Source: a virus
Length of the DNA stretch: 32,362 nucleotides
Strand: one strand, 5' to 3'
IMG/VR virus record: IMGVR_UViG_3300026094_000019
Span: 1 to 32,362 of that record
Made by a program: the position numbers and the translations under genes. The first letter of the stretch is position 1, and the number at the start of each line of letters is the position of its first letter. Below, piece after piece: positions 7,301-30,589 of this stretch. The notes under the pieces are model-generated. The model did not search any database and was not told where the DNA came from. It was given only the letters and a program-made list of their open reading frames with translations.

Positions 7301-9864
7301 TTATTATAATTGCAGGTCCAGGAACTGGACAGTATGGATATATAAGTTCTTACGATTCTCCTACCAAAGAGACAGTAGTTCGAAGAGAAAGCGATAGTGA
7401 ATTAGGGTGGGATCATGTTATCTCGGGCACACCATTAATAGAAAGTTTTGATACTACTTCGCAGTATAGAATTGAACCGAGAATAGAAACAAATCATCCA
7501 GGCTTTACGTTTGAGACCGGATCTTTTCCTGAATCAAGTGAAATACGTGCCTTTAGGTTCGGAACAACCACTGCAATTTTTGAAAATATATCTATTGGCG
7601 AAGGCAGCGAAACCACGGAAGGTATTCCGTTAATATCAGCAGAATTCACTGTTACGCGAAGGGGCCTTACATACGAACTTGAAATAACAGAAATAGGCGC
7701 GGGTTATGCAATAGGAGATACATTTACTATATTAGGCAATGATCTTGACGGAGTTTCTCCTGATAATGATATTACAGTAAGGATTACAGAAGTCACCGAC
7801 GATTCTACAAATTCAATAGTCGACTTCACAACAGATGGTACAGGAAGAGGCGGAAGATTTGTTGCAATATCTAATGACACTGCTTATTACAGCGACGACG
7901 GTGATACATGGAACATATCGTCTTTGCCGTTCACTGGTAATAACTTCAGTGATCTTGTCGCAGGTGGCGATCAATTTATAGCAGTTGCAGAAGGAGAAGA
8001 TCGGGTTGCACGAAGTCCTGACGGAGAAACTTGGCAAATCGAAACTCTTGTCAGCCGAGAAAATTGGATATCAGGAATTTATGGTGACAACAAATTTGTT
8101 CTTGTTTCTAACAATTCAAATTTCGTACAGTATTCAGAAGACGGAATAACCTGGCAAGAAACTGCCATACCCGAAGATACTGTGAGTGATTCTACAGGAG
8201 ATTCTACTGTAAGTTCATACACAGATATTGTTTACGGCAAAGGACAATTTGTAGCAGTTTCTACGTCAGACAGAGCCACAGCCGTTTCAGAGGATGGTGT
8301 GACTTGGACCCGCAATAATGAAGCCATAGTTGATCGAGGCAGTGAGTATTTTTATGATTTTGTAGGTCTGCAGTACGGCGACAACAGATACCTTGCTGTC
8401 AGTTCTGACGGTGTTGTTGTATACAGTTTTGATGCGTTAACCTGGTACGAAGGCACTAATTTAGACCTTGCACCAGCGGAAGAGGTTATAGACATCAGAT
8501 ATTCTCAAGGAATATTCTTTGCAATATACGGTGAAACAGGCAGTTTTTTCAACACTGTTGCAACTACAGAAAACGGTTTATTATGGCGATACGAGACAAT
8601 AGACACGCAAGACTGGAGTGCAGCAGAGTACGGTTATGTTGGCAATACACATAAGTGGAAAGTGCTAGCAAATAACACCACTGTGCAAAACACAGTAAGA
8701 ACAGGAAAGCAGGCCCTATTAAGGGCAAATGTGCGCCAAGGACAATTTAGAAATATAATTATATGGGATCCAGGTTCAGGGTATACTGAAGAAACAAATG
8801 TAGAACCTATAATAACTGATTCTACATTCACAGTAGCAGTCGAAACCGAATCAAGATTGGGCGATGGTGTGTTGCCGCAGCCAGACTTTATCAACAGAGG
8901 CAGCGGTTACAGAACAGACACTTCCGACATTACTATTTCAGGAGACGGATTTGCAGATATTATTCCTGAGGATAATATTTTAGTAGTAGCCGGTGTAGAT
9001 CAAATTCCTGGCGTTGGCGCCCAAATTCGAATTGACGGAATACTAGCAGAAAACGAAGACGACAGTGAAGAAAGAGAACTATTTACTGCTGCAGATGTTA
9101 CTGATCTTGGCGACGACGGGTCAGGAAACGGAACTAGACTTGTTCGCTTCCAAATTAATCCTAGTTTAGAAAACGAATACAACCTTGAACACAATACTCC
9201 AGCAACTTTAAGGGTCAGATATTCGCAAGTACGTATTACAAATCACGATTTCCTTGACATTGGAACAGGTAACTTCATCGAAACTGGATATCCCGGAATA
9301 TATGCTGGAGGTAACTTCTTTACTGCATCTCCGGAAAACGAAGTGTTAGCAGAAAACGGCGGCAGAGTGTTTTATGTATCCACCGACCAAGATGGTAACT
9401 TTAGAGGAGGCGATTTATTTGCTGTTGATCAGGCCACTGGCGTTATCACTATATCAGCAGAATTTTTTGATCTAGGAGGACTGTCAGAACTTGCTTTAGG
9501 CGGAATAAGACTAGGTGGTTCAGGCACAGTTGTAAGGGAATTTTCAACCGACGAAACCTTTGCTGCAGATTCCGATAACGTTGTTCCTACGCAACAGGCA
9601 ATTGCTGAATTTTTAGCTTCTCGATTGAGTGTAGGCGGTCAAGACATTGAGACTAATAATTTGTTAGCAGGTCGAGTACAAGTTGGCGGAAGTGAAAATA
9701 TAATAGACAATGCAGCAGGCGAATATGTGCGAATTACAAGCGATACAGATTTCACCGGTGCTGACGAATTTGGAAATACCTCTCATGTAAGTGGCACTTA
9801 CGTAAGTCAGCAATTGTTTTTGGCATTTAATGATAATGCAATGCAGTCCGACAACATGCAGTGA
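4312..9864 (+). CDS. Giant virion adhesin with W/GD repeats, beta-helix and Asp-box propeller
   Basis: 1850 aa. Residues ~14-410 hold seven repeats of the form F.G.W....Y..GD.V.Y.G..Y.C...H, with their key Trp near residues 17, 80, 131, 182, 246, 300 and 356; they resemble CBM5/12-type carbohydrate-binding modules. Residues ~470-850 look like a right-handed beta-helix: PDRPFRTIRYAAEYV, then VPQGTVIMGDELRSTTVRP, and near 783 GVTTIGTGCVGKRIDGSLHN. Residues ~1180-1390 contain Asp-box-like units (YYSDDGDTW, RSPDGETW, YSEDGITW, VSEDGVTW), suggesting a beta-propeller. The last ~210 residues contain HDFLDIGTGNF, STDQDGNF and DNVVPTQQA, shared with the 2457-aa paralogue downstream. It is probably a tail-fibre or baseplate adhesin binding surface glycans. 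No sialidase active site was identified. The family is remembered from marine T4-like phages; the role is inferred. Confidence 0.75.
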   Translation: MSEFKTGRLSYNFVGEWSAGTEYIRDDVVSLNGKSYVCLIGHTADDVFANDLNNILPDSDPPQPQPRWVLMTKGQSFLGDWQTGQQYNVGEIVYYKGSVWICEVAHVSDIFSDERNNWGFVAQHIEYLNDWTSNEDYVNGSVVKYNGVIYRCEISHTSRTLLEEDALNWSVFYNGIDYRGDWEPEIQYRTNDLVKYGASIYRCLETHTSQETVTHENIGNDEVHHQLGFDSGKFQIEFPGFQYDSEWDSQTEYQQGDVVRYGGVLWIAVRQNKDSDPFRLPEDSTIDWIEFSSSLNFKGEWSLTEEYRKGDVVQRGGQVYEAIADVNRNEGASAVSGDEDDDKWKLLIPGLVFAGEWDAGNLYSKGSIVYFLGTAYRCNFEHISDNTNFPGDNANDVDYWDIVIQAGQPGGLQEKGDLLSYGLNRTIVGDGSSEGAIDIPIGENEQFLSTSEALEVFWRHRDKQIDQIFVANTGIDDAGLDRDRGLVPDRPFRTIRYAAEYVEDNFFPTELVKIFVATGDYEEIAPITVPQGTVIMGDELRSTTVRPAKPLDEYQDDYQYVNYYLSELSKFINEVLSNEKIEPTPGNDEPQLLETTTTDVDGTNAILNLVDIYRQYIDATLNNIDNVPQMTGSNELNTNGNISAAGQALLENTRFIETELWARVRQRYDTVDFDRLRVRNDVFALVRGVARDLKYSGNYATIVAAQRYVNAVQGSTTKDLFLVRDTTGIRQMTTRGAEGTLDDPAEGKRYRSVTGGSFVALDPGWGPADERTWIKNRSPYIQGVTTIGTGCVGKRIDGSLHNGGNRSMVSNDFTQVLSDGVGVWVSDGGRTELVSVFTYYCAVGYLAETGGTIRATNGNNSYGRFGSVANGNDPTETPQNITVFNRNNEAQVKDAFAGGNLDEILVFQYTNAGEQYSSATALIEGAGTFASAEYSDFRDGALFEARIINTTGSGQAGGSGYLVRQGFTQAVNDASSTVKLSSSDSTVDDTLYEGARIIIIAGPGTGQYGYISSYDSPTKETVVRRESDSELGWDHVISGTPLIESFDTTSQYRIEPRIETNHPGFTFETGSFPESSEIRAFRFGTTTAIFENISIGEGSETTEGIPLISAEFTVTRRGLTYELEITEIGAGYAIGDTFTILGNDLDGVSPDNDITVRITEVTDDSTNSIVDFTTDGTGRGGRFVAISNDTAYYSDDGDTWNISSLPFTGNNFSDLVAGGDQFIAVAEGEDRVARSPDGETWQIETLVSRENWISGIYGDNKFVLVSNNSNFVQYSEDGITWQETAIPEDTVSDSTGDSTVSSYTDIVYGKGQFVAVSTSDRATAVSEDGVTWTRNNEAIVDRGSEYFYDFVGLQYGDNRYLAVSSDGVVVYSFDALTWYEGTNLDLAPAEEVIDIRYSQGIFFAIYGETGSFFNTVATTENGLLWRYETIDTQDWSAAEYGYVGNTHKWKVLANNTTVQNTVRTGKQALLRANVRQGQFRNIIIWDPGSGYTEETNVEPIITDSTFTVAVETESRLGDGVLPQPDFINRGSGYRTDTSDITISGDGFADIIPEDNILVVAGVDQIPGVGAQIRIDGILAENEDDSEERELFTAADVTDLGDDGSGNGTRLVRFQINPSLENEYNLEHNTPATLRVRYSQVRITNHDFLDIGTGNFIETGYPGIYAGGNFFTASPENEVLAENGGRVFYVSTDQDGNFRGGDLFAVDQATGVITISAEFFDLGGLSELALGGIRLGGSGTVVREFSTDETFAADSDNVVPTQQAIAEFLASRLSVGGQDIETNNLLAGRVQVGGSENIIDNAAGEYVRITSDTDFTGADEFGNTSHVSGTYVSQQLFLAFNDNAMQSDNMQ

Positions 9865-18454: not shown

Positions 18455-19269
18455 TGGCTGTTTTAAAAAACACAACGATTGACGACACTGGGTCTGTGTA
18501 TCTGCCTGTAGGTACAAGTGCAGACAGACCTAGTAATCCCCAAGACGGCGATTTTAGGTACAACACCGACTTGGGGTATGCAGAATTTTTCTTCAAGGGA
18601 TTTTGGGTTAATGCCGAAACCAACAAAGGTTCAGTGCCTATGCAGGGGTTGATATGCCTGTTAGATGTAAATAATCCCAACAGTTTCACCCCTGGAGATA
18701 GCACAATTTTTGATATCAGTGGCGGTACCAGCTACAACGGAACTATTATAGGTACACCCACTGTGGAAAGCACAGAAACAGGCGCACTGTATCTAGCAGG
18801 AAACACTAGTGAAGGAATAGATATAGGGATTAACGTAGATTCTGTTACTGGCAGAGAATACACAGTAATGACTGTTGCAGGATACAACGGAGGAAATAGA
18901 GAACGAATCACAACTTCTACTGGAAACAATTGGCTGTTAGGCCATTGGAGTAGCGGAACTGTTAGATACTATCCAGAAGGATGGGTCACGCAAGAAACTA
19001 CAAGCGGCACAGGCTCCACGTTGGATCAATGGGGAGTACATGTAGGCACAGGAAACGGTCAAACTGATCAATGGCAATACTTTAAAAATGGCGGATATAG
19101 AACTATTACTCTTTCAGGAGGATCACAAGGCCCTACTAACTTAACTATTAATATTGGACCTGAAAACAGTGACTGGAAATGGCAACTGATTGCTGTTTGG
19201 GACAGAGAGTTAGGACAGGAAGACATAGTCCAATTAACCAGTTCAATAAGAGCACGAGGCGGATTTTAA
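18454..19269 (+). CDS. Fibre/adhesin with concanavalin-like (LamG-type) lectin domain
   Basis: 271 aa. Residues ~1-55 are the short connector found in several neighbours (MAVLKNTTIDDTGSVYLPVG, then RPSNPQDGDFRYNTDLGYAEFF). From ~62 the order of motifs fits a concanavalin A-like jelly roll: GLICLLDVNNPNSF, then IFDISGG.SYNGTI, ALYLAGN, a central YTVMTVAGY strand and the closing WQLIAVWDRELGQEDIVQL, a typical LamG_3-like end. Such domains in phage fibres usually bind glycans. The ATG overlaps the previous stop by one base, and its own stop overlaps the next ATG by one base, so translation of three successive fibre genes is probably coupled. The fold is a pattern-level call; the ligand is unknown. 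Confidence 0.65.
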   Translation: MAVLKNTTIDDTGSVYLPVGTSADRPSNPQDGDFRYNTDLGYAEFFFKGFWVNAETNKGSVPMQGLICLLDVNNPNSFTPGDSTIFDISGGTSYNGTIIGTPTVESTETGALYLAGNTSEGIDIGINVDSVTGREYTVMTVAGYNGGNRERITTSTGNNWLLGHWSSGTVRYYPEGWVTQETTSGTGSTLDQWGVHVGTGNGQTDQWQYFKNGGYRTITLSGGSQGPTNLTINIGPENSDWKWQLIAVWDRELGQEDIVQLTSSIRARGGF

Positions 19270-20312
19270 TGGCAACACTTAAAAATACCACAGTTAACGA
19301 CAGCGGCTTTTTAAGGCTGCCTGTTGGCACAGGGCCGCAGCGTCCGCCAGAAAATGCAGATAATCTAGGTGCAATGCGAGTCAACAGCAGCACAGGCAAA
19401 CTTGAGTACTGGAGCGGTTCTGACTGGGAAATAAATACTGTAGCCTTTCCATTTAGAACAATTATTACCACTGCTTTTATGCAAGGCGGGTATGAAAGTT
19501 CGGTTGCTTGGAATAATTGTAACAAAACATTCACTGCAACCGATACCACTGTGAATTTAGGCGACGGGGCAATTGATAGAACCCACAATTATAACTGGGG
19601 TGCCTGTTCCAAAGACGACGCTTATGTTTTTGGAGCAGCCGGTCATAGCACTGATTCCAACAGAACAATTGCATTTAACATGCGCACCGAACAGAACACA
19701 ACGGACATTGAAAGAACTCTGCCTCGTGCTAGATGGAGATTTGGTGGAGTATTTCAGGAACATTTTCAAACATGGTTTTCTGGAGACGGTTCGTCTGCGA
19801 TAGACAAATACAATCTTGTTACAAAAACAGTACAAAGCACAATCTCTGACACGTATAGAACCGGAGCAATATGGGGAATGAGTCACGAAGACTATGCAGT
19901 ATTTTATTCAACAGAAACTGCAAGCAATTTCACCTTTGCTACAGAAACTGTGTCCGGAAGAGGAGGTACTGCACCGTCAAATCACCATCAACAAAAGTCC
20001 ATAAACTCAAAATGGAATCTTGCCTGGTGCGGTAACGAAGGCAGTTATAACGGAGGCAACAGCTTTCGTAGAAGTAATTGGACCACAAACACCACTTCAG
20101 GAACTGTGCCCAAGCCAGTTACCAACTCTGGAGAAGAGAACCTCACAATGGGACAGGACCATCAGTACATGTTGGGCATGTACAACGGCGCTCAAAACAA
20201 CATTTCCTGGAGATGGAATTATGCAACAGAAAGCGGTTTTCAAGGAGCCTCGTCCATGGAGCCCAAAGGCAAACCCGGTTCCAGTTCGGGCGTGTGCAGT
20301 TGGATCGACTAG
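19269..20312 (+). CDS. Propeller-like adhesin, first of a tandem pair
   Basis: 347 aa. The ATG at 19269 shares one base with the previous stop and opens MATLKNTTVNDSGFLRLPVG, the same N-terminal connector as its neighbours; an in-frame GTG-type extension back to 19179 would run through the preceding gene and is unlikely. After the connector (R..ENADNLGAMRVN, W-containing strand) a ~285-residue domain has recurring CSKDDAYVFG, RWRFGGVFQE, SSAIDKYNL, W.MSHEDYAVFY, NSKWNLAWCGNEG and MGQDHQYMLGMYNG units, consistent with a Kelch-like beta-propeller. It ends GKPGSSSGVCSWID. The following gene is a close paralogue with blocks of identical DNA. A distal receptor-binding role is inferred from the position and duplication. 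Confidence 0.68.
   Translation: MATLKNTTVNDSGFLRLPVGTGPQRPPENADNLGAMRVNSSTGKLEYWSGSDWEINTVAFPFRTIITTAFMQGGYESSVAWNNCNKTFTATDTTVNLGDGAIDRTHNYNWGACSKDDAYVFGAAGHSTDSNRTIAFNMRTEQNTTDIERTLPRARWRFGGVFQEHFQTWFSGDGSSAIDKYNLVTKTVQSTISDTYRTGAIWGMSHEDYAVFYSTETASNFTFATETVSGRGGTAPSNHHQQKSINSKWNLAWCGNEGSYNGGNSFRRSNWTTNTTSGTVPKPVTNSGEENLTMGQDHQYMLGMYNGAQNNISWRWNYATESGFQGASSMEPKGKPGSSSGVCSWID
20076..20161 (+). repeat. Identical 86-base block, copy 1 (second copy 21132-21217)
   Basis: These 86 bases read identically at 21132-21217 in the paralogous adhesin. A further 48-base identity links 20256-20303 with 21312-21359. Regions between them differ at many positions, which suggests recent duplication with diversification or local gene conversion. 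Confidence 0.85.
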
Positions 20313-20321
20313 GAAACCAAA

Positions 20322-21368
20322 ATGGCAACACTGAAAAATACCACAATCAATGACACGGGCTTTTTGAAATTACCCAAGGGCACTACGGCGCAGCGCCCCG
20401 GAAACGACGAAGGCAGAATTAGATACAACACCGACGACGGCGATGTAGAGTTTTACACCAACAGACAGTCTCGAGGTTGGAGCAAGTTAACTATTCCTTT
20501 TAAGACCAGACAGATTATTACCACTGCTTTTATGCAAGGCGGATATGAAAGTTCTGTTGCTTGGAATAACTGTAATAAAATCCTTACTGCTACAGATACT
20601 GCTTATAATCTAGGCGACGGGGCAATTGAAAGATCGTTCAATTATCAATGGGGTGCCTGTTCCAAAGACGACGCTTATGTTTTTGGCGCCGGTGGCGGGC
20701 ATTCTGTAACGTCTAATTACACAATTGCGTTTAACATGAGAACTGAACAACAGACCACAGACATTGATCGAACACTTTCTTTTTCGCGATGGAGATTCGG
20801 AGGCGTGTTCCAAGAAGACAAAGTTACATGGATGGCAGGAGATTCATCAAGCGCCATAGAAAAATACAATTTAACAACTAAAACTGCACTAGGAACAATA
20901 GGACAAAACTATCGCAGCGGCGATACCTGGGGAATGAGCACAGAGACATACGGATTATTTTATACGGACAATACTGCTGAAAGTTTCACCTTTGCAACAG
21001 AAACTCTGTCTTCAAGAGGAGGTACTGCTCCTTCTAACAGTCATCAACAAAAAGCAATCAACTCAAAAGACGGATTTGCTTGGTGCGGTAACGAAGGCAC
21101 TTTTAACGGAGGCAACAGCTTTCGAGTAACCAATTGGACCACAAACACCACTTCAGGAACTGTGCCCAAGCCAGTTACCAACTCTGGAGAAGAGAACCTC
21201 ACAATGGGACAGGACCACCAATACATGTTAGGCATGTTCAACGGCAATCAAAACAACATTTCCTGGAAATGGATTTATGCTACTGATTCTGGCTTCAGAG
21301 GTGCTTCGTCTATGGAGCCCAAAGGCAAACCCGGTTCCAGTTCGGGCGTGTGCAGTTGGCGTGATTGA
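20322..21368 (+). CDS. Propeller-like adhesin, second of a tandem pair
   Basis: 348 aa, starting MATLKNTTINDTGFLKLPKG with the RP....GRIRYNTDDGDVEFY connector, then the same propeller-like domain as the previous gene: FMQGGYESSVAWNNCNK, CSKDDAYVFG, RWRFGGVFQED, SSAIEKYNL, AWCGNEG and the end GKPGSSSGVCSWRD. AGGA at 20312-20315 precedes the start by six bases and overlaps the previous stop. The two proteins differ mostly in loops (for example GAGGGHSVTSN against GAAGHSTDSN) while the strand-forming motifs are kept. Probably alternative or hetero-assembled tail tips that recognise receptors; the family is remembered only as recurrent in marine phages and its ligand is unknown. Confidence 0.68.
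   Translation: MATLKNTTINDTGFLKLPKGTTAQRPGNDEGRIRYNTDDGDVEFYTNRQSRGWSKLTIPFKTRQIITTAFMQGGYESSVAWNNCNKILTATDTAYNLGDGAIERSFNYQWGACSKDDAYVFGAGGGHSVTSNYTIAFNMRTEQQTTDIDRTLSFSRWRFGGVFQEDKVTWMAGDSSSAIEKYNLTTKTALGTIGQNYRSGDTWGMSTETYGLFYTDNTAESFTFATETLSSRGGTAPSNSHQQKAINSKDGFAWCGNEGTFNGGNSFRVTNWTTNTTSGTVPKPVTNSGEENLTMGQDHQYMLGMFNGNQNNISWKWIYATDSGFRGASSMEPKGKPGSSSGVCSWRD
21132..21217 (+). repeat. Identical 86-base block, copy 2 (first copy 20076-20161)
   Basis: Second copy of the 86-base identity described at 20076-20161. The spacing between copies is 1056 bases, matching the tandem gene duplication. Confidence 0.85.
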
Positions 21369-21417: not shown

Positions 21418-22254
21418 ATGGATAGACTACAACAATATCATTTCGCAGAAAAATATATCAGTGAACTTAACACAGATGTATCAATGCTTGCCGAAAAAGA
21501 TCAAGAAATTTTGAACTACAGTTTGAATAAAGAATGGTGTAATCCCAAGTACAAAATGCGTTGGTTTGTAGGCGAGACGCAGATTACGCCATTCAGCAAA
21601 CTAAGACAGTGGCTGCTTGAAATAAAAGGCAGGGAGGAAGCAATCGAAGGGTTAGAATACGATATTGCAAAATGGCAGATTGAAATAGATAAAACCAATC
21701 ACATTGCTGAAAATACCACAGATGAATTTGAACGTAGATCTGCTGAACTTGAAGCTTGGAACCTAGAAAGAAAACAAATTGCCACTAAAAGAAGATTGTC
21801 AAATTGGTATCTTGAAAGACAGCAGTTGATTGATTTAGTGAATGAATTCCTAGAATCAGAAGAAGCAATTGTACCTGACGGTACTGGCAGAACTTATATG
21901 GATATAATGGACACTGAGGAAGAGGACCAATACGAAGCAGAATATTGGACTAATAGGTTGGCCAAGCAAGCAGCAACAGACATGTTGTTTTACGGCAGAA
22001 TAAACACAGGTAACATGGACGCAATTCTCAGCATGAGTTCAGAACAACAGACCGAAACTTTGACCTTAGCACTAAAATATGGCACTCAATTGCAGCAGTC
22101 GCAAGATCAAATACAGTCAGAAGTCAACGAGCAATTGGAACTAGAAAAACAGAATCAAAATGCGGCTCTCGCACATTCAGCAGATGGCAAACACACTAAC
22201 AACGTTTCTATCGATACAGAAGAGGACAATATGCTAAATGTATATAATACATGA
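21418..22254 (+). CDS. Hypothetical, helical/coiled-coil protein
   Basis: 278 aa, highly charged and mostly helical, not recognised. An AAGGATGGTG stretch precedes the ATG at 21418. Residues ~60-145 have a heptad-like pattern rich in E, K, R, L and W (EAIEGLEYDIAKWQIEIDK, ELEAWNLERKQIATKRR) fitting a coiled coil; the C-terminal ~60 residues (LQQSQDQIQSEVNEQLELEK) are polar and again coiled-coil-like. There is no membrane segment or enzyme motif. It directly follows the adhesin genes and could be a fibre assembly chaperone, as many phages place a chaperone gene after the fibre; this is inference from position, not homology. Its end overlaps the next gene by 17 bases. Confidence 0.55.
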   Translation: MDRLQQYHFAEKYISELNTDVSMLAEKDQEILNYSLNKEWCNPKYKMRWFVGETQITPFSKLRQWLLEIKGREEAIEGLEYDIAKWQIEIDKTNHIAENTTDEFERRSAELEAWNLERKQIATKRRLSNWYLERQQLIDLVNEFLESEEAIVPDGTGRTYMDIMDTEEEDQYEAEYWTNRLAKQAATDMLFYGRINTGNMDAILSMSSEQQTETLTLALKYGTQLQQSQDQIQSEVNEQLELEKQNQNAALAHSADGKHTNNVSIDTEEDNMLNVYNT

Positions 22255-22753
22255 AACACTGTCGGATCATGATCCAAGAATAGATTCTAGAACTACGTTA
22301 ATAGGTGATTATTGGCATTTCACAGTTCGGTACATTCCAGACGAATCAGTATACCTCGACTGGCTGTTATATGAAGAAATCTCAGAATCAGTTGCTAAAT
22401 CTTATAAAATCACAAAGTCCTATAAAGGAGTCATTAGTATTTCAGAACCTGTTACTAACATTGATGAAATTACTCAGGTATCTGCCGACACAGAGTATAA
22501 AAAATACATATATGAGTTAACTGACACTGATAAATCCAATGTTACAGAGTTAATGAAAGCTAGCATGAGATTGTATGCTAAAGCAAGATTGCAAAATCCA
22601 ATACTAGAAAAATTATTAGTAGAAGTAGATCTTGCAGACTCTATTGAAAGATGCGAATATGTTATGCACCACTATTACGGCGTGGGTTCAGCAACAATGG
22701 ATAAAACTCCCCAAAGGCCTGCATTCGAAGTAAACTGGCCTAGAGAAATTTGA
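22238..22753 (+). CDS. Hypothetical protein overlapping the coiled-coil gene
   Basis: 171 aa, not recognised. The start at 22238 overlaps the previous gene by 17 bases, and a GAGG near 22222-22225 lies at workable distance. The N-terminal half looks mixed alpha/beta (MYIIHETLSDHDPRIDSRTT, YWHFTVRYIPDESVYLDWLL), the C-terminal half helical (KSNVTELMKASMRLYAKARL, SIERCEYVMHHYYGVG). No signal peptide or membrane segment. It ends 38 bases before the enzyme cassette, so it is the last gene of the upstream unit. It may partner the overlapping coiled-coil protein, but nothing in the sequence shows a function. Confidence 0.5.
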   Translation: MYIIHETLSDHDPRIDSRTTLIGDYWHFTVRYIPDESVYLDWLLYEEISESVAKSYKITKSYKGVISISEPVTNIDEITQVSADTEYKKYIYELTDTDKSNVTELMKASMRLYAKARLQNPILEKLLVEVDLADSIERCEYVMHHYYGVGSATMDKTPQRPAFEVNWPREI

Positions 22754-22791: not shown

Positions 22792-24459
22792 ATGAAGAAT
22801 TTATTTAGTATTCCACTCAATCCAAAACTCTCTCCTCAGCAATATGAAGAATTCATAGAATTTGCTGTCAATTATAAACATTTAATATACGATATATATT
22901 TTACCAGCAGAATTGCTCCGTTTGGACAAGATGCAATGGGCGATGTGTTTGTGCTTCAGGAAGATTACGGATATGCAATTGATATAGCGCTGAAAATACA
23001 AGAATTTACCGGTGTGCCTGTAAGTGCTACCTTTAATAACATTCAAGTGCCTCCTACACAGAAAAATCTTGATATTTTTATTTACAATTTTAAACGTCTG
23101 TACGATGCGGGAGTACGCAAAGCAACTATTCCGCATACACACTGGATGGCAACTGGACAAATCGAAGCAGCATTTCCTGAGCTAGAAGTTAAGAACACGA
23201 TACTGCGAGATGTTCGAACTGCAACCGAAATTGTAAATCTTGCAAAATACGGATTTGACTATATTAATTTGGACCGAGATCTTATGCGGGATAGAGACAC
23301 ACTATTGCGCTTGAAACAAGCAAAGGAATGGATTAAAGAAAACCTAGGACGAGAAATCAAATTCAGTTTGCTAGCAAACGAAGGCTGCATCGGAAATTGT
23401 CCGATGATGGTTGAACATTTTGAATTTAATAATAATCGGGAAGGAGCATCTCCTCAGTACTTTAATGATCCAATAAGCCGAGTCAGTTGTCCTAAGTGGA
23501 ATGTTGAGGATCCGTCTGTCCATCTAAAAAAAGCAAATTTACCACCGTGGAAAGCTGATTGGGAAGAGCTTGTAAGAGACCTTGGTATAGATGTCTTCAA
23601 AATGCACGGCCGCGAAGCAATTAGTCGAATGTACGAAACAATGGATATTGTTAAAAGATGGGATAACAACGAAGTGTTCCTTCATGATACGTTTAGCAAC
23701 TATCTAGAAGAAACAAATCTCTTGAACAAACCTATCAATATATGGCGCGATAAAATAAAAAATTGCAAGTTTGACTGCTGGGAATGCCAATATTGTGACA
23801 AGATATATCAAGCCAAAACTGCTATGGATCACAGTGATCTTGTTAAACACACTGCAGATAGCATAGCAAAATCAGGCATTCCGACCGTTAATATTCCAGT
23901 TATAGGACTGACCTCACCTAGAGTACAAACACTACTAAATTTACTTGCACAAGGAGTAGACACCTACCTAGAAGTAGGTTCGTATCAAGGAGCAACACTG
24001 TGTGCTACAATGCTGGATAATCCAATAACTGCGGTTGCTATAGATAACTGGGAAGAACAGATTCAATCAAAAAACGGAAGCGTAAAAGCAGAAAACGATA
24101 TAAACACATTCATGAAAAATGTAGAAGAATACAGAGGTAGGTCGATTGTAAATGTTTTGAACTCAGACCTGTTTCAAGTGGATGTCACTCCGATGTTGCA
24201 CAGCATGAAATTATTCTTCTATGACGGTCCTCATGATCAACAAAGTGTGAAACAATCTGTAGAACATTACTGGCCTGCGCTTACAGAAGAATGTATATTG
24301 GTGTTTGATGATGCAAATTGGAAAGGAGTAGTGGACGGTGCTAGAGAAGGCATTAATTCATGTAATGGTATTGCTATCTATGAAAAAATGCTTCTAAATA
24401 GCGAGGAAAGCAAAAACGACTGGTGGAATGGTTTATACATAGTTGTAGCGAGAAAATAA
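22792..24459 (+). CDS. Fusion: Cys-cluster TIM-barrel-like domain + class I SAM methyltransferase
   Basis: 555 aa in two parts. Residues ~1-340 have alternating strand-helix spacing suggesting a TIM barrel (SIPLNPKLSPQQYEEFIEFA, VPVSATFNN, GVRKATIPH, GFDYINLDRDLM, IKFSLLANEGCIGNCPM) and a cysteine set: C199, C203, C233, C325, C329, C332 and C335. The NEGC...CP and C...C..C..C spacing recalls iron-sulfur U32-family/UbiU-like proteins, but I do not claim a peptidase. Residues ~375-555 fit a Methyltransf_24-type class I methyltransferase: glycine-rich motif I EVGSYQGATL (394-403), AVAIDNW after strand 2, FFYDGPHD (475-482) and LVFDDANWKG. Together with the abutting halogenase and oxygenase, a tailoring role on a small molecule or amino acid is plausible. 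The substrate is unknown. The two halves could have acted as separate enzymes in an ancestor. Confidence 0.68.
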   Translation: MKNLFSIPLNPKLSPQQYEEFIEFAVNYKHLIYDIYFTSRIAPFGQDAMGDVFVLQEDYGYAIDIALKIQEFTGVPVSATFNNIQVPPTQKNLDIFIYNFKRLYDAGVRKATIPHTHWMATGQIEAAFPELEVKNTILRDVRTATEIVNLAKYGFDYINLDRDLMRDRDTLLRLKQAKEWIKENLGREIKFSLLANEGCIGNCPMMVEHFEFNNNREGASPQYFNDPISRVSCPKWNVEDPSVHLKKANLPPWKADWEELVRDLGIDVFKMHGREAISRMYETMDIVKRWDNNEVFLHDTFSNYLEETNLLNKPINIWRDKIKNCKFDCWECQYCDKIYQAKTAMDHSDLVKHTADSIAKSGIPTVNIPVIGLTSPRVQTLLNLLAQGVDTYLEVGSYQGATLCATMLDNPITAVAIDNWEEQIQSKNGSVKAENDINTFMKNVEEYRGRSIVNVLNSDLFQVDVTPMLHSMKLFFYDGPHDQQSVKQSVEHYWPALTEECILVFDDANWKGVVDGAREGINSCNGIAIYEKMLLNSEESKNDWWNGLYIVVARK

Positions 24460-25971
24460 ATGTATCTTAATAAAATCAAAAAAATTACAATATTTGGAGG
24501 AGGCACAAGCGGTTGGCTGACTGCTGCATTCCTGCTGAACAATCTTGCTGTTCCTACAGAGATAGTATTGATAGAAAATTCTAAACAAGGGCCTATCGGT
24601 GTCGGCGAAGGAACACAGCCATTGACTGCAAAGTTTCTGAGTCAATGCGGTATACCTCCGCATCTGTGGATGAAAGACAGCAATGCAAGTTTTAAATACG
24701 GAGTAGAATTGGTAGGATGGAATAATGATTCCTATTTTGTAGACAATGACAATTTTACAAATGCAATAATCGCTGATGATTTCTTTACCAGCGATTATTT
24801 CATAGACAGATCATATTCTGAGTTTGCAGAATGGCATCCTGCTTATAGATTAGCAAAAAAGAACATCTGTCAGAAATACGACGACTACCTTGACGTGAAT
24901 CTTGGAATGAGTCCGCACGATTTTGGCGCTGTTCATTTCAGTGCATATGCCATTATTGCTACAATAAAAAAATTAATTGAAAAAGATATAACATACATAG
25001 ACACAGATATCATCGAAGTTGAATCATCAGACCATGGTATTCAGGCTTTAATCGATTCAGCAGGATCTCAATTTACATCTGATCTTTTTATTGACTGTTC
25101 AGGATTTTCCAGTAGATTATTAGAACAAGAACTCAAAGTACCTTTTAATTCTTTTTCTGATTACCTGCTAAATGATAGTGCTGTTATGATACGGTCACAG
25201 TACACAGATCCGCAATCTCAGTGTCATCCTTACACAAAAGCAACTGCAATGGATGCAGGATGGCGATTTACAATACCGACTTTCAAAGACATAGGCAATG
25301 GATACATATATTCAAGCGACTTTATTTCTGAGGAAGATGCTGAGAAGGAATTACGCACTGCAATATCTGAGTATGTATCTCCAGCAAAACATTTAAAAAT
25401 GAAGTGCGGAAGTCATAAAGAAATTGCAGTAAAAAATGTTTGTGCAGTTGGGCTCGCTGCCGGATTTGTTGAGCCTCTAGAAGCAACTGGAATAACATTT
25501 ACAACTGCAGCAGTGTCGCAAATAGCGGCTGTGCTAAATCAAAGTGGAAATGTTTGGGGTGATCATCAAAGAGCAAATATAAATCATTATTTTGAATTTA
25601 TGACCTATGAAATTTTGGCTTTTGTGTGGGCGCATTATTTTTATTCTTCAAAAAATGACACAGAATACTGGAAACAGGTTCACAAACAAAAACTAGAGAA
25701 TTTACCTAGATTATCGAGAGAAATTTTAGATATGTTTATTCCAGAACCAAAAAGATTCTTTAATTTAACATCTTACTCAATGTTTAACGTAGTCCAGTGG
25801 TTCAGTGTGTTGCATGCCGGCGGCGCCTATTCAAATACCCAATCAAATCTTACGGACAAACAGAAAAAATATGCAGAATATTTTCTTGAAACTCACAATC
25901 AAAGAGTGAAACTGGCAGAAGAAATGTTTGATAATCATTATGACTATCTAACCAAATGGTACAGCAAATGA
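24460..25971 (+). CDS. Flavin-dependent tryptophan-halogenase family protein
   Basis: 503 aa, starting directly after the previous stop. The FAD-binding motif GGGTSGW (13-19) and GVGEGTQP (47-54) fit the tryptophan halogenase family. K79, in SFKYGVEL, aligns with the catalytic Lys79 of PrnA, and E341, in FVEPLEATGI, with PrnA Glu346 (known chemistry: FADH2 and O2 make HOCl, which is relayed to Lys). The usual WxWxIP motif is present as WRFTIP (268-273), with Phe for the second Trp. A flavin reductase partner is needed in this family and none is seen here, so the host may supply it. Cyanophage Syn10 encodes a characterised relative, VirX1, reported to iodinate and halogenate diverse substrates. 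Halide preference and substrate here are unknown. Family call is strong; activity is inferred. Confidence 0.9.
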   Translation: MYLNKIKKITIFGGGTSGWLTAAFLLNNLAVPTEIVLIENSKQGPIGVGEGTQPLTAKFLSQCGIPPHLWMKDSNASFKYGVELVGWNNDSYFVDNDNFTNAIIADDFFTSDYFIDRSYSEFAEWHPAYRLAKKNICQKYDDYLDVNLGMSPHDFGAVHFSAYAIIATIKKLIEKDITYIDTDIIEVESSDHGIQALIDSAGSQFTSDLFIDCSGFSSRLLEQELKVPFNSFSDYLLNDSAVMIRSQYTDPQSQCHPYTKATAMDAGWRFTIPTFKDIGNGYIYSSDFISEEDAEKELRTAISEYVSPAKHLKMKCGSHKEIAVKNVCAVGLAAGFVEPLEATGITFTTAAVSQIAAVLNQSGNVWGDHQRANINHYFEFMTYEILAFVWAHYFYSSKNDTEYWKQVHKQKLENLPRLSREILDMFIPEPKRFFNLTSYSMFNVVQWFSVLHAGGAYSNTQSNLTDKQKKYAEYFLETHNQRVKLAEEMFDNHYDYLTKWYSK

Positions 25972-26540
25972 TAACTCTTTTTGATTCAGTGCTTGAAACA
26001 GTTCCTAATGTAGGAAATGACGAACAACTTCGTTCTCTTTTAGGACAAATTGAAAACAACAGAAACGAACCGTCTAACAACAATACAAATGATGGATGTT
26101 GGAGATCCAGTAAAAAATACAAAGATATTGATTGGCTTATTAAGGAGATAACAAACACAGTCTCTAATGCAATCAAGTACTACAGCAATAAAGATCAAGT
26201 TTTTGCTGAAGCCGTAAAAAATCTTAATATAAAAGATTTAAAAATTTTTTATTGGACAAATGTAAATCAACCCTTGTCACGAAATGTCATCCATTCGCAT
26301 AAAAGTGCAATATTTTCTGGTGTATATTACCTACAAGGAACAGACACAGGAAATCTAAGATTTATAAATCCTGCGAATATTTTAGGAGAATGCAATAACT
26401 GGTCACCTTTTACAAGAGACTTTTTCTACACGCCTTCTGACAGAGATCTAACTATGTGGCCATCATGGCTACCTCACGAGGTTGAAACAAACCTTTCAAA
26501 TCGTGAAAGAATTAACATAGCATACGATATTATAATATGA
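25968..26540 (+). CDS. 2OG-Fe(II) oxygenase (2OG-FeII_Oxy_5-like)
   Basis: 190 aa from the ATG at 25968, whose ATGA overlaps the halogenase stop by four bases; an in-frame ATG at 25956 would add four residues. The motif H109-S-H111 in NVIHSHKSAIFSGVYYLQG, H170 in PSWLPHEVE and R181 in NRERINIAYD give an HxH...H iron triad with a 2-oxoglutarate-binding Arg, as in the PF13759-type family that often shows HSH and SGVYYL. It likely hydroxylates a small molecule, amino acid or peptide in the cytoplasm using Fe(II), O2 and 2-oxoglutarate. Substrate unknown; proximity to the halogenase suggests a joint pathway. It overlaps the next gene by four bases (ATGA), so translation is probably coupled. Such oxygenases are common in cyanophages, so it need not act with the halogenase. 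Confidence 0.82.
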   Translation: MITLFDSVLETVPNVGNDEQLRSLLGQIENNRNEPSNNNTNDGCWRSSKKYKDIDWLIKEITNTVSNAIKYYSNKDQVFAEAVKNLNIKDLKIFYWTNVNQPLSRNVIHSHKSAIFSGVYYLQGTDTGNLRFINPANILGECNNWSPFTRDFFYTPSDRDLTMWPSWLPHEVETNLSNRERINIAYDIII

Positions 26541-27271
26541 AGAGAATAGAGTTTTATTCAAAAATACCAGGTGTAGCCGATATGTTTCCTATTGTGCATG
26601 CTCGTGATGCACTGCCTAGATGGGCCAAATCGGCTAAAAAAAACTACGTAAACACAAAAAAAAGCACAATTGGCAGAAACAATCACATTTATCAATGTCC
26701 GGGCATATTCAATCTAATGACTCAGGGATACATTGTGCCAATGTGGCACGATGTGATAATTTCTACTAACGGTGATCCAGACTCCTTTTCGTGGACTGTT
26801 CCAACATCTGATTTAAACGAACTAGACAACGAAACCGATATAATAGAAAATCAAACTAACGGCGTAGGATCATTGATGCCTATGAAACCCTGGAGTATGA
26901 ACACCTTGATTAAAATCAATACTCCGTGGAACGTTGTTGCACCTAGAGGTATCAAATTATTGATACTGCCAATATCTTATCCTGACAGTTTTGAGTTTGA
27001 AAGTTCGATCGGCATTCAAGACCCTGGGATATCTAATGAAATAAATGCACAATTGTATTACAACGTAACCAAAGGAGATTATTTGATAAAAGCGGGAACT
27101 CCTTTGTTTCAAATAGTTCCTTTGAGTGAAAAAAATATAGATATGACTTGCAGAGAAATGAACAATTTAGACAAGTTATGGATTGCAAAAAGGCGATATT
27201 TTAACACAGCATCGTTTAAGATTAAAAGAAATATTGTCAAGGATATATACTATCGTCACTTTGGGAAATAA
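26537..27271 (+). CDS. Conserved marine-phage protein of unknown function (DUF6065-like?)
   Basis: 244 aa. It has P-rich WAKSAKKNYV near the N-terminus, CPGIFNLMTQGYIVPMWHD in the middle and a C-terminal beta-rich half with INTPWNVVAPRGIKLLILP followed by IKAGTPLFQIVPL. I remember this order (C.P.FD..T.GYI, NPW.I.TP.G.S.L, GTP..Q..PF) from a protein family widespread in T4-like cyanophages, possibly the one named DUF6065, but I could not check. The function of that family is unknown to me. It may form a cupin-like barrel. The ATGA overlap with the oxygenase and two-base gap to the next gene place it in the cassette. Cytoplasmic; no membrane segment. Confidence 0.6.
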   Translation: MKRIEFYSKIPGVADMFPIVHARDALPRWAKSAKKNYVNTKKSTIGRNNHIYQCPGIFNLMTQGYIVPMWHDVIISTNGDPDSFSWTVPTSDLNELDNETDIIENQTNGVGSLMPMKPWSMNTLIKINTPWNVVAPRGIKLLILPISYPDSFEFESSIGIQDPGISNEINAQLYYNVTKGDYLIKAGTPLFQIVPLSEKNIDMTCREMNNLDKLWIAKRRYFNTASFKIKRNIVKDIYYRHFGK

Positions 27272-27273
27272 AA

Positions 27274-27678
27274 ATGTTTAGCGAAATATTTACTGATGAT
27301 TTAGCAGTTTATACTGTGGTACCGAGAGAGATAACAGACGATACTGCTCTCTATAAATTTCAGCGAGATCGACAAAAGAAACGAAAATTTATCCAGGAAC
27401 TGCTGAAACACAATGAAATTATGATATTTTATATAGAAGAGGAGGACGGTCTTGAAAAGTTTGTTGTTGCTACGCTGAAAAACATAGATGTTGATGCTTT
27501 TGATTTGCCAGAAGCAATTGACGAATGGCGAAACAATACCTATCAAGTTAAACATCATGTTCCTTTTATCAGTGTACCGGATAAGACTCCCTTTTATATA
27601 CATGTTGACGATATAACAAAAATAGTTTTACGAAATGAAAATATACAGGAAGTTACAAAAAATTTAAAATTATGGTAA
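27274..27678 (+). CDS. Hypothetical protein closing the enzyme cassette
   Basis: 134 aa, not recognised. It starts two bases after the previous stop. Acidic and basic residues alternate in helices (TALYKFQRDRQKKRKFIQEL, FVVATLKNIDVDAFDLPEA), followed by strands and IHVDDITKIVLRNENIQEVT; the pattern suggests a small alpha/beta fold. No Cys, metal site or membrane segment stands out. The end overlaps by nine bases the convergent NUDIX gene. It may be a late-regulated partner of the cassette enzymes, but that rests on position alone. Homologues may exist in cyanophages. Confidence 0.5.
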   Translation: MFSEIFTDDLAVYTVVPREITDDTALYKFQRDRQKKRKFIQELLKHNEIMIFYIEEEDGLEKFVVATLKNIDVDAFDLPEAIDEWRNNTYQVKHHVPFISVPDKTPFYIHVDDITKIVLRNENIQEVTKNLKLW

Positions 27679-28110
27679 CTGATCTATTTGGTCAAGCACA
27701 TCAACAATGGTAGAAATTTTGACCTGATTGACTTTTTTGTTTAAAGTGTTTTTGACGCCGTAATGTAAAGGATTTGGCCAACAGTTATAAGTTACCCATG
27801 CATATCCATTGTGCTCGCAATTTAAACAAGGTTGAAATTCTTCTTGTACAACACATAGATAGGTATGATATACAAATAAAGAATCGCGAGATTTAAACTT
27901 CTCAAGTGGCATGGTTTTTGAAATTGAAACAACTCCTATTTCTTCCTGAATTTCGCGCTCACAGCCCTCCCATTCTGTTTCTTCTCCTTCCAGTGTTCCT
28001 CCAACTAACCCCCATACATTAGATCGTTTACTTTGAGCACGGTGTACAAAAAGAAATCTTTTTGTATCTAAGGCATAAAATAATGCTCCTGAACAAATAG
28101 TTGATATCAT
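27670..28110 (-). CDS. NUDIX hydrolase
   Basis: 146 aa from the ATG at 28110; an in-frame TTG at 28137 would add nine residues, but neither start has a clear Shine-Dalgarno. Residues ~38-60 contain a complete NUDIX box, GX5EX7REUXEEXGU: G, five residues (TLEGE), E, seven residues (TEWEGCE), then REIQEEIGV. A preceding VHRAQSKRSNVWGLVGG strand is typical. These enzymes hydrolyse nucleoside diphosphates linked to another group (for example dNTPs, NADH, ADP-ribose, mRNA cap-like ends); the substrate here is not determined. It is alone on the minus strand in this stretch, converging with the cassette (nine-base overlap) and divergent from the 28187 gene. NUDIX genes are common in T4-like phages. 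The catalytic assignment is strong; role and expression class are inferred. Confidence 0.85.
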   Translation of the reverse strand: MISTICSGALFYALDTKRFLFVHRAQSKRSNVWGLVGGTLEGEETEWEGCEREIQEEIGVVSISKTMPLEKFKSRDSLFVYHTYLCVVQEEFQPCLNCEHNGYAWVTYNCWPNPLHYGVKNTLNKKVNQVKISTIVDVLDQIDQLP

Positions 28111-28159
28111 ATGTTTATATACTTTATCATGTGCCAAAATAATTGCAATTGTGATTCTA

Positions 28160-28186: not shown

Positions 28187-30589
28187 ATGTCAGAATTATT
28201 TGATAGAATAAGACTTATTCCCAGAGCGGGCGACTTCCTTGGTAGAATTACAGGCTCTAGCGGACAAATTTATACCAATAAAACAACTGGCAGTTTGCGA
28301 GTTTACGACGGTGATAATCAGGGAGGCGCTGAACTTGCAAGAGCAGACTTTGCAAATATAGAAGACAACGCTGCACTAAATTTAAAGGGCGAAAAAAACC
28401 GCATACGGTTTGCATGGACTACTCTAACAGAATTAGAAACTGAAGTAGATCCTAGTATTTACGCAGGTATGATTGCGTATGTTGCTGCTGAAAACAGATT
28501 ATATTTTGCAGAAGTAGACGGATGGAAACCAGTTGCCAATTTATCAGAGATTAGCGAGTCTGGCACACAGATTCCTTACACACCAGACGATTCGAATACT
28601 CTGCTTCATGTAAGCGGAACATACGATTTTGGAAACAATATATTAAAGTATGCTAATGCTATTGATCAGGAATCACAGTTGTCAAACTATGACCCGTCCG
28701 TATACCACGGCATGACTATGCATGTGCATTCTACCGGAGCCTTGTACTATGCTCATGACGGTGCTTGGCGCAAATTACTGACTGATACAAGCTTTAACAA
28801 TGTAGAAGCAGCAGGCTATGTTTCGCCTCTCGGGCCAGTAGCGTATTCGAACTCTTATGTTGATTTAGATAATACTCCTAATAGCATATTAGATTTTGGT
28901 ATTGTAGACGGCGCTTCAGGACAAGTTCTTTCTACTAACGGTGCAGGCTCTTTCAGTTTTATTGATGTTGCAACCGAGTCTGGCAGTTCGTTTGACCTAA
29001 TAGAAACAGACAACGGATCTTTTGATCCTAGCGAGTTATCAACCCTGTCTTTCTCGGGCGGCGATAATATTTCAACAGAGGTAGTAACAGATTCAGATGC
29101 GGTTACTATCAACCTTAATAGTTTTTCTATCAACTTTCTTTCGGATGTAGATACTCAGAGTAACCCACCTAGCACAGGAGAAGTTTTAAAATGGGACGGT
29201 GCAAAATGGTCTCCTGGCACAGATATAGCAGAAGGCGGCACCGGTCTTGATGCCGACACACTTGACGGCCAGGACGGATCCTACTATCTCAACTATAATA
29301 ATTTTACAAATACACCGGACGTGTTGACCTTAGACGAGTTAGGGGTAAACAATGAAGCAGCAGCTAGCGGCAATGGAGCAATTAGTTACGACAATACTAC
29401 AGGATTATTTCGATACACGCCCCCTACTGCTGCAGGAATAGGTGCAGCATCTCTATCAGATTTCAGTGTCACAGTTGATCCACCAGGTGTTACCAGTTTA
29501 ACATACAATGATTCTACTGGTGTTTTTCGTTATACTCCTCCTCAACTGGGCGATTTTGAATTTACAGGGACTATACTAGATACTGTTGGTAGTGCGCAAA
29601 TTACAGTAACACCGGATGTTAATTTCTCTGGTGCAGTATCTTTTACTACGCTGTCATCAACTGGTGTAGGAACACTTACTTTGGATAGTGCTAGTTCTAT
29701 TGCGCTTGTTGCAGAAGATGATATATCTTTTTCTGCAGGCACAGGTAGTATTATCTTAGACAATCAATCCTGGCCTCAGGCAGACGGCGCGAGCGGCGAA
29801 GTTTTATCTACCGACGGCCAAGGTCAATTGAGTTGGCAATCCGTAAGCGGAAATGATCAAAATCTATTTGAAACAATATCAGCAGATTCTGGATCCACAA
29901 CAGCAGATACAGTCACAGACACACTAACTGTATCTGGCGGAACTGATATAACAACTTCTGTCAGCGGAGATGTCCTCACAATTGATTTTACAGGAACAGG
30001 CAGTAATCAAAATGTGTTTGAGACAGTTAGTGGAGATTTTGGAAGCACCACTGCTGACACAAGTTCAGACACACTAACTGTATCTGGCGGTACTGATATT
30101 TCCACTTCTGTAAGCGGAGACACACTCACAATAAATTACACCGGCGGCGGCGGAGGTGTGACAGATTTCAGTCAATTAACTGACGCACAAAATGCTAATC
30201 AAAGAACAATAGACCAAGTATTTGAAACTGCTATTTGCACACTGCGAGGTATTGCTAATGGATTTGTATCATACAGTTGGGAAGATCATTATACAGGAGA
30301 AAATCCCACAATCTATGCTTTATCAGGGACCACTCTTGCTTTTGATCTAAACAATTTGGCGGGCCATCCTACCGAAATTCAAGATGCATCAGGGAATCCA
30401 TTAACAACTGGCTTGACATGGGTTTCTCCTAGCGGCCAGGTTTTAACTGGAGCATCTGCTAATGATCAACAAACCGGAACGCTTTATTGGCGTATAAATG
30501 AAAGCATCAGCGGCAATTTTTTATATCAATGCACTGCGCACGCATCTATGGTCGGCGATATAGTAGTAAAAAGACTAAGTCTACTTTAA
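28187..30589 (+). CDS. Fibre-like virion protein with C-terminal cupredoxin-like domain
   Basis: 800 aa. The N-terminus (MSELFDRIRLIPRAGDFLGR, then IYTNKTTGSLRVYDG and RADFANIEDNAALN) resembles structural proteins I remember from marine T4-like phages. The middle is fibre-like: DADTLDGQDGSYYLN, paired RYTPP units, and two adjacent 50-residue copies (558-607 and 608-657) with DTLTVSGGTDI.TSVSGD.LTI. Residues ~700-800 form a separate domain: PTIYALSGTTLAFDLN, H727 in AGHPTEIQD, then C782, H785 and M788 in FLYQCTAHASMVGDIVVK. This H...C-x2-H-x2-M pattern equals the amicyanin-type copper ligand arrangement. It is preceded by an exact late promoter. The stop overlaps the stop of the minus-strand gene by four bases. 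Virion location is likely; copper binding is inferred. Confidence 0.72.
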   Translation: MSELFDRIRLIPRAGDFLGRITGSSGQIYTNKTTGSLRVYDGDNQGGAELARADFANIEDNAALNLKGEKNRIRFAWTTLTELETEVDPSIYAGMIAYVAAENRLYFAEVDGWKPVANLSEISESGTQIPYTPDDSNTLLHVSGTYDFGNNILKYANAIDQESQLSNYDPSVYHGMTMHVHSTGALYYAHDGAWRKLLTDTSFNNVEAAGYVSPLGPVAYSNSYVDLDNTPNSILDFGIVDGASGQVLSTNGAGSFSFIDVATESGSSFDLIETDNGSFDPSELSTLSFSGGDNISTEVVTDSDAVTINLNSFSINFLSDVDTQSNPPSTGEVLKWDGAKWSPGTDIAEGGTGLDADTLDGQDGSYYLNYNNFTNTPDVLTLDELGVNNEAAASGNGAISYDNTTGLFRYTPPTAAGIGAASLSDFSVTVDPPGVTSLTYNDSTGVFRYTPPQLGDFEFTGTILDTVGSAQITVTPDVNFSGAVSFTTLSSTGVGTLTLDSASSIALVAEDDISFSAGTGSIILDNQSWPQADGASGEVLSTDGQGQLSWQSVSGNDQNLFETISADSGSTTADTVTDTLTVSGGTDITTSVSGDVLTIDFTGTGSNQNVFETVSGDFGSTTADTSSDTLTVSGGTDISTSVSGDTLTINYTGGGGGVTDFSQLTDAQNANQRTIDQVFETAICTLRGIANGFVSYSWEDHYTGENPTIYALSGTTLAFDLNNLAGHPTEIQDASGNPLTTGLTWVSPSGQVLTGASANDQQTGTLYWRINESISGNFLYQCTAHASMVGDIVVKRLSLL
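29858..30157 (+). repeat. Two tandem 150-base repeat units in the 800-aa fibre gene
   Basis: Codons 558-607 and 608-657 encode matching units beginning QNLFETIS or QNVFETVS and containing DTLTVSGGTDI; 25 bases near the middle are identical in both. The unit is exactly 50 codons, so copy number can change without a frameshift. Confidence 0.75.

Follow-up and report, generated by a model that had tools for sequence, protein, structure and literature searches.

A phage-encoded flavin-dependent halogenase (FDH) with phenylalanine in place of the second tryptophan of the WxWxIP motif shows, within a known enzyme family, a change to a textbook motif that appears to be both recurrent and compensated. 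WxWxIP is widely used as a marker when genomes are mined for FDHs. Here we analyse a window of 32,362 nucleotides, the whole of the IMG/VR virus record IMGVR_UViG_3300026094_000019. Our overall explanation, to which we assign a probability of roughly 0.7, is that the window encodes a working two-component FDH of a T4-like jumbo-type phage, in which Phe270 would be offset by a change at residue 243, the chemistry would be essentially unchanged and the substrate would probably be something other than free tryptophan.

A phage halogenase with a variant motif

The halogenase gene is a complete open reading frame, from ATG to stop, that begins right after the stop codon of the gene upstream (Table 1). 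Its 503-aa product matches PF04820 (Trp_halogenase) over residues 8–467 (E = 3.2e-87; 293.7 bits against a curated cut-off of 21) and the phrog_2928 family 'tryptophan halogenase' (1.4e-99). PF04820 is the sole domain found by a Pfam scan, which detected no built-in flavin reductase domain of the single-component, Bmp5-like kind. The motifs that an earlier note had read from the sequence all lie where it placed them: the FAD motif, K79 (within SFKYG), E341 in FVEPLEATGI and WRFTIP at residues 268–273. The FX[DE]PX[EFL] motif, or halide loop, is present as F336-V-E-P-L-E341-A-T-G (residues 336–344). In an alignment with PyrH, with residues counted along the rows, K79 corresponds to K75, E50 to E46, E341 to E354, F270 to W281 and M243 to A255. 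This register, the PF04820 match and the conservation of both catalytic residues in all 59 members of the clade described below agree with the note's description of a viral FDH with an intact Lys/Glu pair. The protein reads WRFTIP where a strict criterion asks for WxWxIP; we did not treat this as excluding it from the FDHs, because the motif is varied or absent in some members of the family (PMC8407142).

The structure prediction that the note had called for supports this assignment. An AlphaFold2 model built from 58 aligned relatives (mean pLDDT 93.4) has the FDH fold, and its best solved structural relatives are PyrH, AbeH, Thal, PrnA and RebH (TM 0.83–0.90). Judged on the model, the window protein is closest to PyrH. 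It has in common with PyrH and AbeH, which are tryptophan 5-halogenases of PF04820, the fold (TM ~0.86), GxGxxG, the Lys, the Glu and the halide loop, but it is ~27% identical to them, has Phe for the second Trp of WxWxIP and lacks their HxF (Trp2) and Trp4 substrate motifs; its C-terminal ~90 residues could not be aligned with Trp halogenases at the sequence level. The indole-type FDHs BrvH, Xcc4156 and metagenomic MHal likewise lack the Trp4 motif, although BrvH keeps WxWxIP and its halide loop reads T-S where that of the window enzyme reads T-G.

Table 1 Features of the halogenase locus (positions are those of the window)
Feature	Position	Strand	Basis or remark
1850-aa tail-fibre protein	4312–9864	+	six carbohydrate-binding module 5/12 stretches (PF02839)
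phrog_1417 protein, first of two tandem similar proteins (~350 aa, one cluster), tail-fibre region	19179–20312	+	
phrog_1417 protein, second of the pair; upstream cassette edge, tail-fibre region	20322–21368	+	cluster 6, 44/59 loci
phrog_1409 protein, 278 aa	21418–22254	+	cluster 4, 47/59 loci
171-aa cassette protein	22238–22753	+	cluster 3, 48/59 loci
555-aa protein, Cys-rich N-terminal part and C-terminal Methyltransf_24	22792–24459	+	stop codon abuts halogenase start codon
Flavin-dependent halogenase, WxFxIP type, 503 aa	24460–25971	+	PF04820, phrog_2928, fold model
FAD-binding motif GGGTSG (GxGxxG), residues 13–18	24496–24513	+	invariant or nearly so across clade
Lys79 codon, predicted catalytic	24694–24696	+	alignment, PyrH K75; K in 59/59
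Met243 codon, covaries with Phe270	25186–25188	+	Ala in W-type enzymes
W268-R-F270-T-I-P273, WxWxIP variant	25261–25278	+	clade: 26/59 F, 33/59 W
Glu341 codon, predicted catalytic	25480–25482	+	alignment, PyrH E354; E in 59/59
Thr343-Gly344, predicted halide-binding backbone site	25486–25491	+	EATGITF in 59/59; role of RebH T359/G360
2OG-Fe(II) oxygenase, overlaps halogenase gene end	25956–26540	+	PF13759 / phrog_81
phrog_7084 protein, weak dUTPase-like fold	26537–27271	+	
134-aa cassette protein	27274–27678	+	cluster 7, 38/59 loci
NUDIX hydrolase, between cassette and tail genes	27670–28137	-	
Baseplate wedge / tail fibre connector protein, downstream edge	28187–30589	+	phrog_677, 2e-57; cluster 8

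Residue 270 changes repeatedly and in step with residue 243

Both states of the motif are common in the clade. A tree with outgroups implies at least four W/F changes at position 270, and leaving columns 243 and 270 out of tree building raises this minimum to five; with gains and reversions together numbering five or more in the clade, the exchange is not a one-off. Each state has its own partner at position 243, Ala with Trp270 (33/33) and Val, Met or Thr with Phe270 (26/26). When every column was compared with the W/F state, 243 alone had zero residue overlap (next best column, 0.12), and on supported branches all four independent contrasts shift 243 in the same, expected direction (sign test p = 0.125). 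The characterised W-type enzymes PyrH and AbeH align with Ala at this position.

The same pairing is found in a wider set of 277 phage halogenases, obtained after three further IMG/VR scans and including P-SSM2-like and short 393-aa groups, in which 64 proteins carry WxFxIP. Here Phe270 is accompanied by Val (53), Thr (7), Met (3) or Ala (1), and Trp270 by Ala (184), Thr (13), Pro (7), Ser (5), Val (3) or Cys (1); that is, 243 is bulky in 63 of the 64 F-types and small in 197 of the 213 W-types. Among 502 columns, 243 is again the best (overlap 0.09; next, 0.23), and five to six independent contrasts run in the expected direction with none opposite (sign test, median p 0.03–0.06); a Fisher p of 7e-46 ignores relatedness and is given for scale only. 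The exceptions to the pairing are one F-type that keeps Ala (L205) and three W-types that carry Val. The short 393-aa halogenase-like proteins (L005, L006, L040 and L083; 16 loci in the wider scan), which read WMFEIP with Val at the position of 243, are by sequence an independent example of the pairing; they are ~110 aa shorter than the window enzyme and have F-F-E-P-I-S-A where it has F-V-E-P-L-E-A.

Residues 243 and 270 both fall in predicted strands (240–247 and 267–273). Because a big and a small residue (W and A) are repeatedly exchanged for a smaller and a bigger one (F and V), with 243 matching 270 each time, the swap is probably a volume-compensated repacking of the core that keeps the shield, rather than a new activity; a modest effect on the tunnel, pocket or substrate shape is possible. 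The string WxFxIP did not appear in the literature searched, although the variant may still have been reported, and the same search returned nothing relevant on W272/W274 mutants.

A virus-specific clade carried by T4-like phages

Two IMG/VR scans yielded 59 unique relatives, 45–100% identical to the window protein, on virus contigs, the longest of 245 kb, and K79, E341, W268, I272, P273, T343 and G344 are invariant among them. Deposited phages offer no match closer than about 31–32% identity, and the best bacterial or archaeal match, in a pattern-limited scan of contigs from 84,980 species, is 27% identical. By sequence, the window halogenase is a member of a new virus-specific clade of a known enzyme family. 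We looked for a bacterial source of the clade and identified no donor beyond this 27% match, in whose phylum just 4 of 294 genomes have a strong match to PF04820.

The capsid protein (gp23) of a 155-kb relative is 70% identical to those of Vibrio phage 2.275.O and Sinorhizobium phage Phosso and 66% identical to that of phage 121Q, all of them T4-like jumbo phages. psbA is absent from the 14 related records searched, and the phage collection holds no near DNA match to the window. On these observations we rejected a cyanophage origin. Given the capsid relatives and the absence of psbA, the carrier is probably a T4-like phage of jumbo type that infects heterotrophic bacteria, and cyanophage biology should not be carried over to it.

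The earlier note had drawn a parallel with VirX1 of cyanophage Syn10 (PDB 6qgm), which breaks down on this point and on the motif itself. VirX1 is likewise a phage halogenase with the Lys and the Glu, and has a phrog_7084 homologue and a tail region close by, but it is ~29% identical to the window protein, belongs to a separate clade and another virus group, and reads WVWNVP, with the second Trp kept. At this sequence distance the window protein would not be placed among the VirX1-type iodinating halogenases. Some viruses of the present clade carry a second halogenase gene: in five (L070, L071, L079, L084 and L010) a VirX1-like enzyme (WxWNIP, ~530 aa) is encoded less than 4 kb from the clade halogenase, and in related phages a 393-aa protein (for example L005:8520-9701) is encoded beside or near the main halogenase as a second group.

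The note's remark that no flavin reductase is visible nearby was borne out by domain searches. Searches of 14 related records for PF01613 found nothing, and PF00175, PF03358 and PF00881 were likewise missing from the window record and seven related records, whereas control bacterial genomes were positive. With none of these four families found, host flavin reductases would have to supply FADH2. Supply by separate host reductases is usual for many FDHs.

A cassette linked to tail-fibre genes

Across the clade the halogenase sits in a conserved gene order: phrog_1417, phrog_1409, the 171-aa protein, the 555-aa protein and sometimes a 2OG oxygenase precede it, and a 2OG-Fe(II) oxygenase, phrog_7084, the 134-aa protein and a tail or baseplate gene follow. 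The 555-aa family occurs in 57 of the 59 loci, in most of them adjoining the halogenase or one gene away, and the 2OG oxygenase family in 54. Because two loci (L011 and L085) carry the halogenase beside DNA polymerase and without these genes, the cassette is not obligatory. The 555-aa protein has seven invariant cysteines (199, 203, 233, 325, 329, 332 and 335) ahead of its Methyltransf_24 domain and homologues of ~45% identity in 123 cyanophage records; an iron–sulphur or U32-type identity, suspected from the cysteines, found no support when Pfam and PDB profiles were searched. Members of the phrog_7084 family also adjoin cyanophage halogenases (VirX1 in Syn10 and the enzymes of S-RIM44, S-CREM1 and P-TIM40), and the family thus recurs next to phage halogenases from two clades that are distant from each other. 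Its model (pLDDT 88.8) resembles the dUTPase fold (E = 9e-5; TM 0.42/0.66), a weak relation that is structural only. In halophages such as HCTV-8, a phrog_7084 protein lies near tail-fibre genes without an annotated halogenase, and the NUDIX gene downstream of the cassette has a counterpart in PA5oct-related jumbo phages of Pseudomonas, where it adjoins the tail-sheath gene.

Free tryptophan is probably not the substrate. In halogenases of free tryptophan the binding motifs Trp2 and Trp4 are reported to be present, and enzymes that lack Trp4 to show no interaction with tryptophan (PMC8269204); FDHs of the BrvH, Xcc4156 and MHal type are predicted not to use it (PMC8269204; PMC7336383). Neither HxF (Trp2) nor either form of the Trp4 motif (YYxxF.../YHG...) occurs in any of the 59 clade members, so 'tryptophan halogenase' would here be the name of a family and not of a substrate.

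What the cassette does instead can be read in several ways. It is possible, if doubtful, that its enzymes synthesize or decorate a polysaccharide or a small molecule, for example a halogenated amino-acid or sugar metabolite. In cyanophages, Iyer et al. 2021 (PMC7824862) interpreted comparable clusters of halogenase, 2OG oxygenase and methyltransferase genes as pathways for metabolites or polysaccharides, and the present cassette, with its Methyltransf_24 domain and one to three oxygenases, resembles them; yet a scan of the cassette proteins showed none of the carbamoyl transferase or HAD genes of those clusters, neither an NRPS nor a carrier protein is present, and the genes lie inside a tail-fibre region. 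That location lends itself to a second idea, which we consider rather unlikely, that the halogenase and 2OG oxygenases halogenate and hydroxylate residues of the flanking tail fibres or adhesins. The gene lies between tail-fibre genes in an order that is conserved among loci whose halogenases are 45–100% identical, S-CREM1 has a row of genes for a collagen-like protein, yorD, halogenase, a phrog_7084 homologue, one short gene, four 2OG oxygenases and JmjC, and the absence of the free-Trp motifs is in keeping with a protein substrate. Adjacency is weak evidence, however, where a T4-like gene order is inherited, and the two loci without a cassette and the metabolite interpretation of the cyanophage clusters both speak against it. 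We also considered the neighbouring tail adhesins as substrates on the basis of Trp enrichment, but Trp is barely enriched in them (2.67% versus 2.13%), which is not convincing. Unlikely as well is a combined proposal in which a tail-linked halogenation and oxygenation cassette, with the dUTPase-fold partner common to VirX1-type loci, would modify adhesins or another virion protein, and the step from W270/A243 to F270/V243 would be a recurrent adjustment of the flavin/substrate boundary for large substrates.

Alternatives to a compensated exchange

The boundary between flavin and substrate could in principle be opened by Phe270, which would widen the substrate range, shift the halide preference or let monooxygenase activity leak, and the earlier note had similarly supposed that the change of motif may tune the range of halides or substrates. 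WxWxIP is proposed to hold the substrate away from the flavin (PMC8407142, PMC10696468), the roles of its individual residues were still called unclear in a 2023 review (PMC10696468), and variants occur in unusual FDHs such as Bmp5 (PMC8407142). Several observations nevertheless make such an opening quite improbable. A bulkier residue nearly always replaces Ala243 when Phe is present; the halide loop E341-A-T343-G344 (EATGITF) is identical in 59/59 members, W- and F-types alike; and the W/F state flips between close relatives within the same gene cassette. VirX1, moreover, reportedly prefers iodide, and since it is a W-type this preference cannot stem from the Trp-to-Phe change. The alignment of phage halogenases that the note had suggested thus confirms WxFxIP as a real variant, recurrent and paired with 243, and goes against the tuning drawn from it. 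It is very improbable that this family member has decayed or been repurposed and lacks halogenase activity, for although the motif is changed, the ORF is intact and K79, E341, E50 and T343-G344 are invariant in 59 proteins down to ~45% identity, which argues for purifying selection on the active site.

Discussion

We favour a working halogenase whose variant motif is compensated. FADH2 would be provided by host flavin reductases. By analogy with the mechanism of PyrH, PrnA and RebH, flavin hydroperoxide and halide would yield HOX near T343/G344, the equivalents of which in RebH (T359/G360) have a role in halide binding (PMC5945002); K79 would relay or activate the HOX, and E341 would aid activation of the aromatic substrate. 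Val, Met or Thr in place of Ala at 243, a coupling observed throughout the clade, would fill the volume lost at Phe270 provided that the two residues are in contact, and the shield between flavin and substrate site would be preserved with halogenation chemistry essentially unchanged. The substrate may be a larger or different electron-rich aromatic than free L-Trp; tentative candidates are a residue within a tail protein or some other protein and a small molecule made by the tail-linked 2OG oxygenase and methyltransferase cassette.

For the family, a search for strict WxWxIP overlooks roughly a quarter of the phage halogenases in our set (64/277), and the repeated natural change from Trp to Phe in phages, nearly always with a bulkier partner, provides a ready two-residue test of the role of the motif. 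For the phages, the conserved cassette points to a role of halogenases in virion or late-infection chemistry outside cyanophages.
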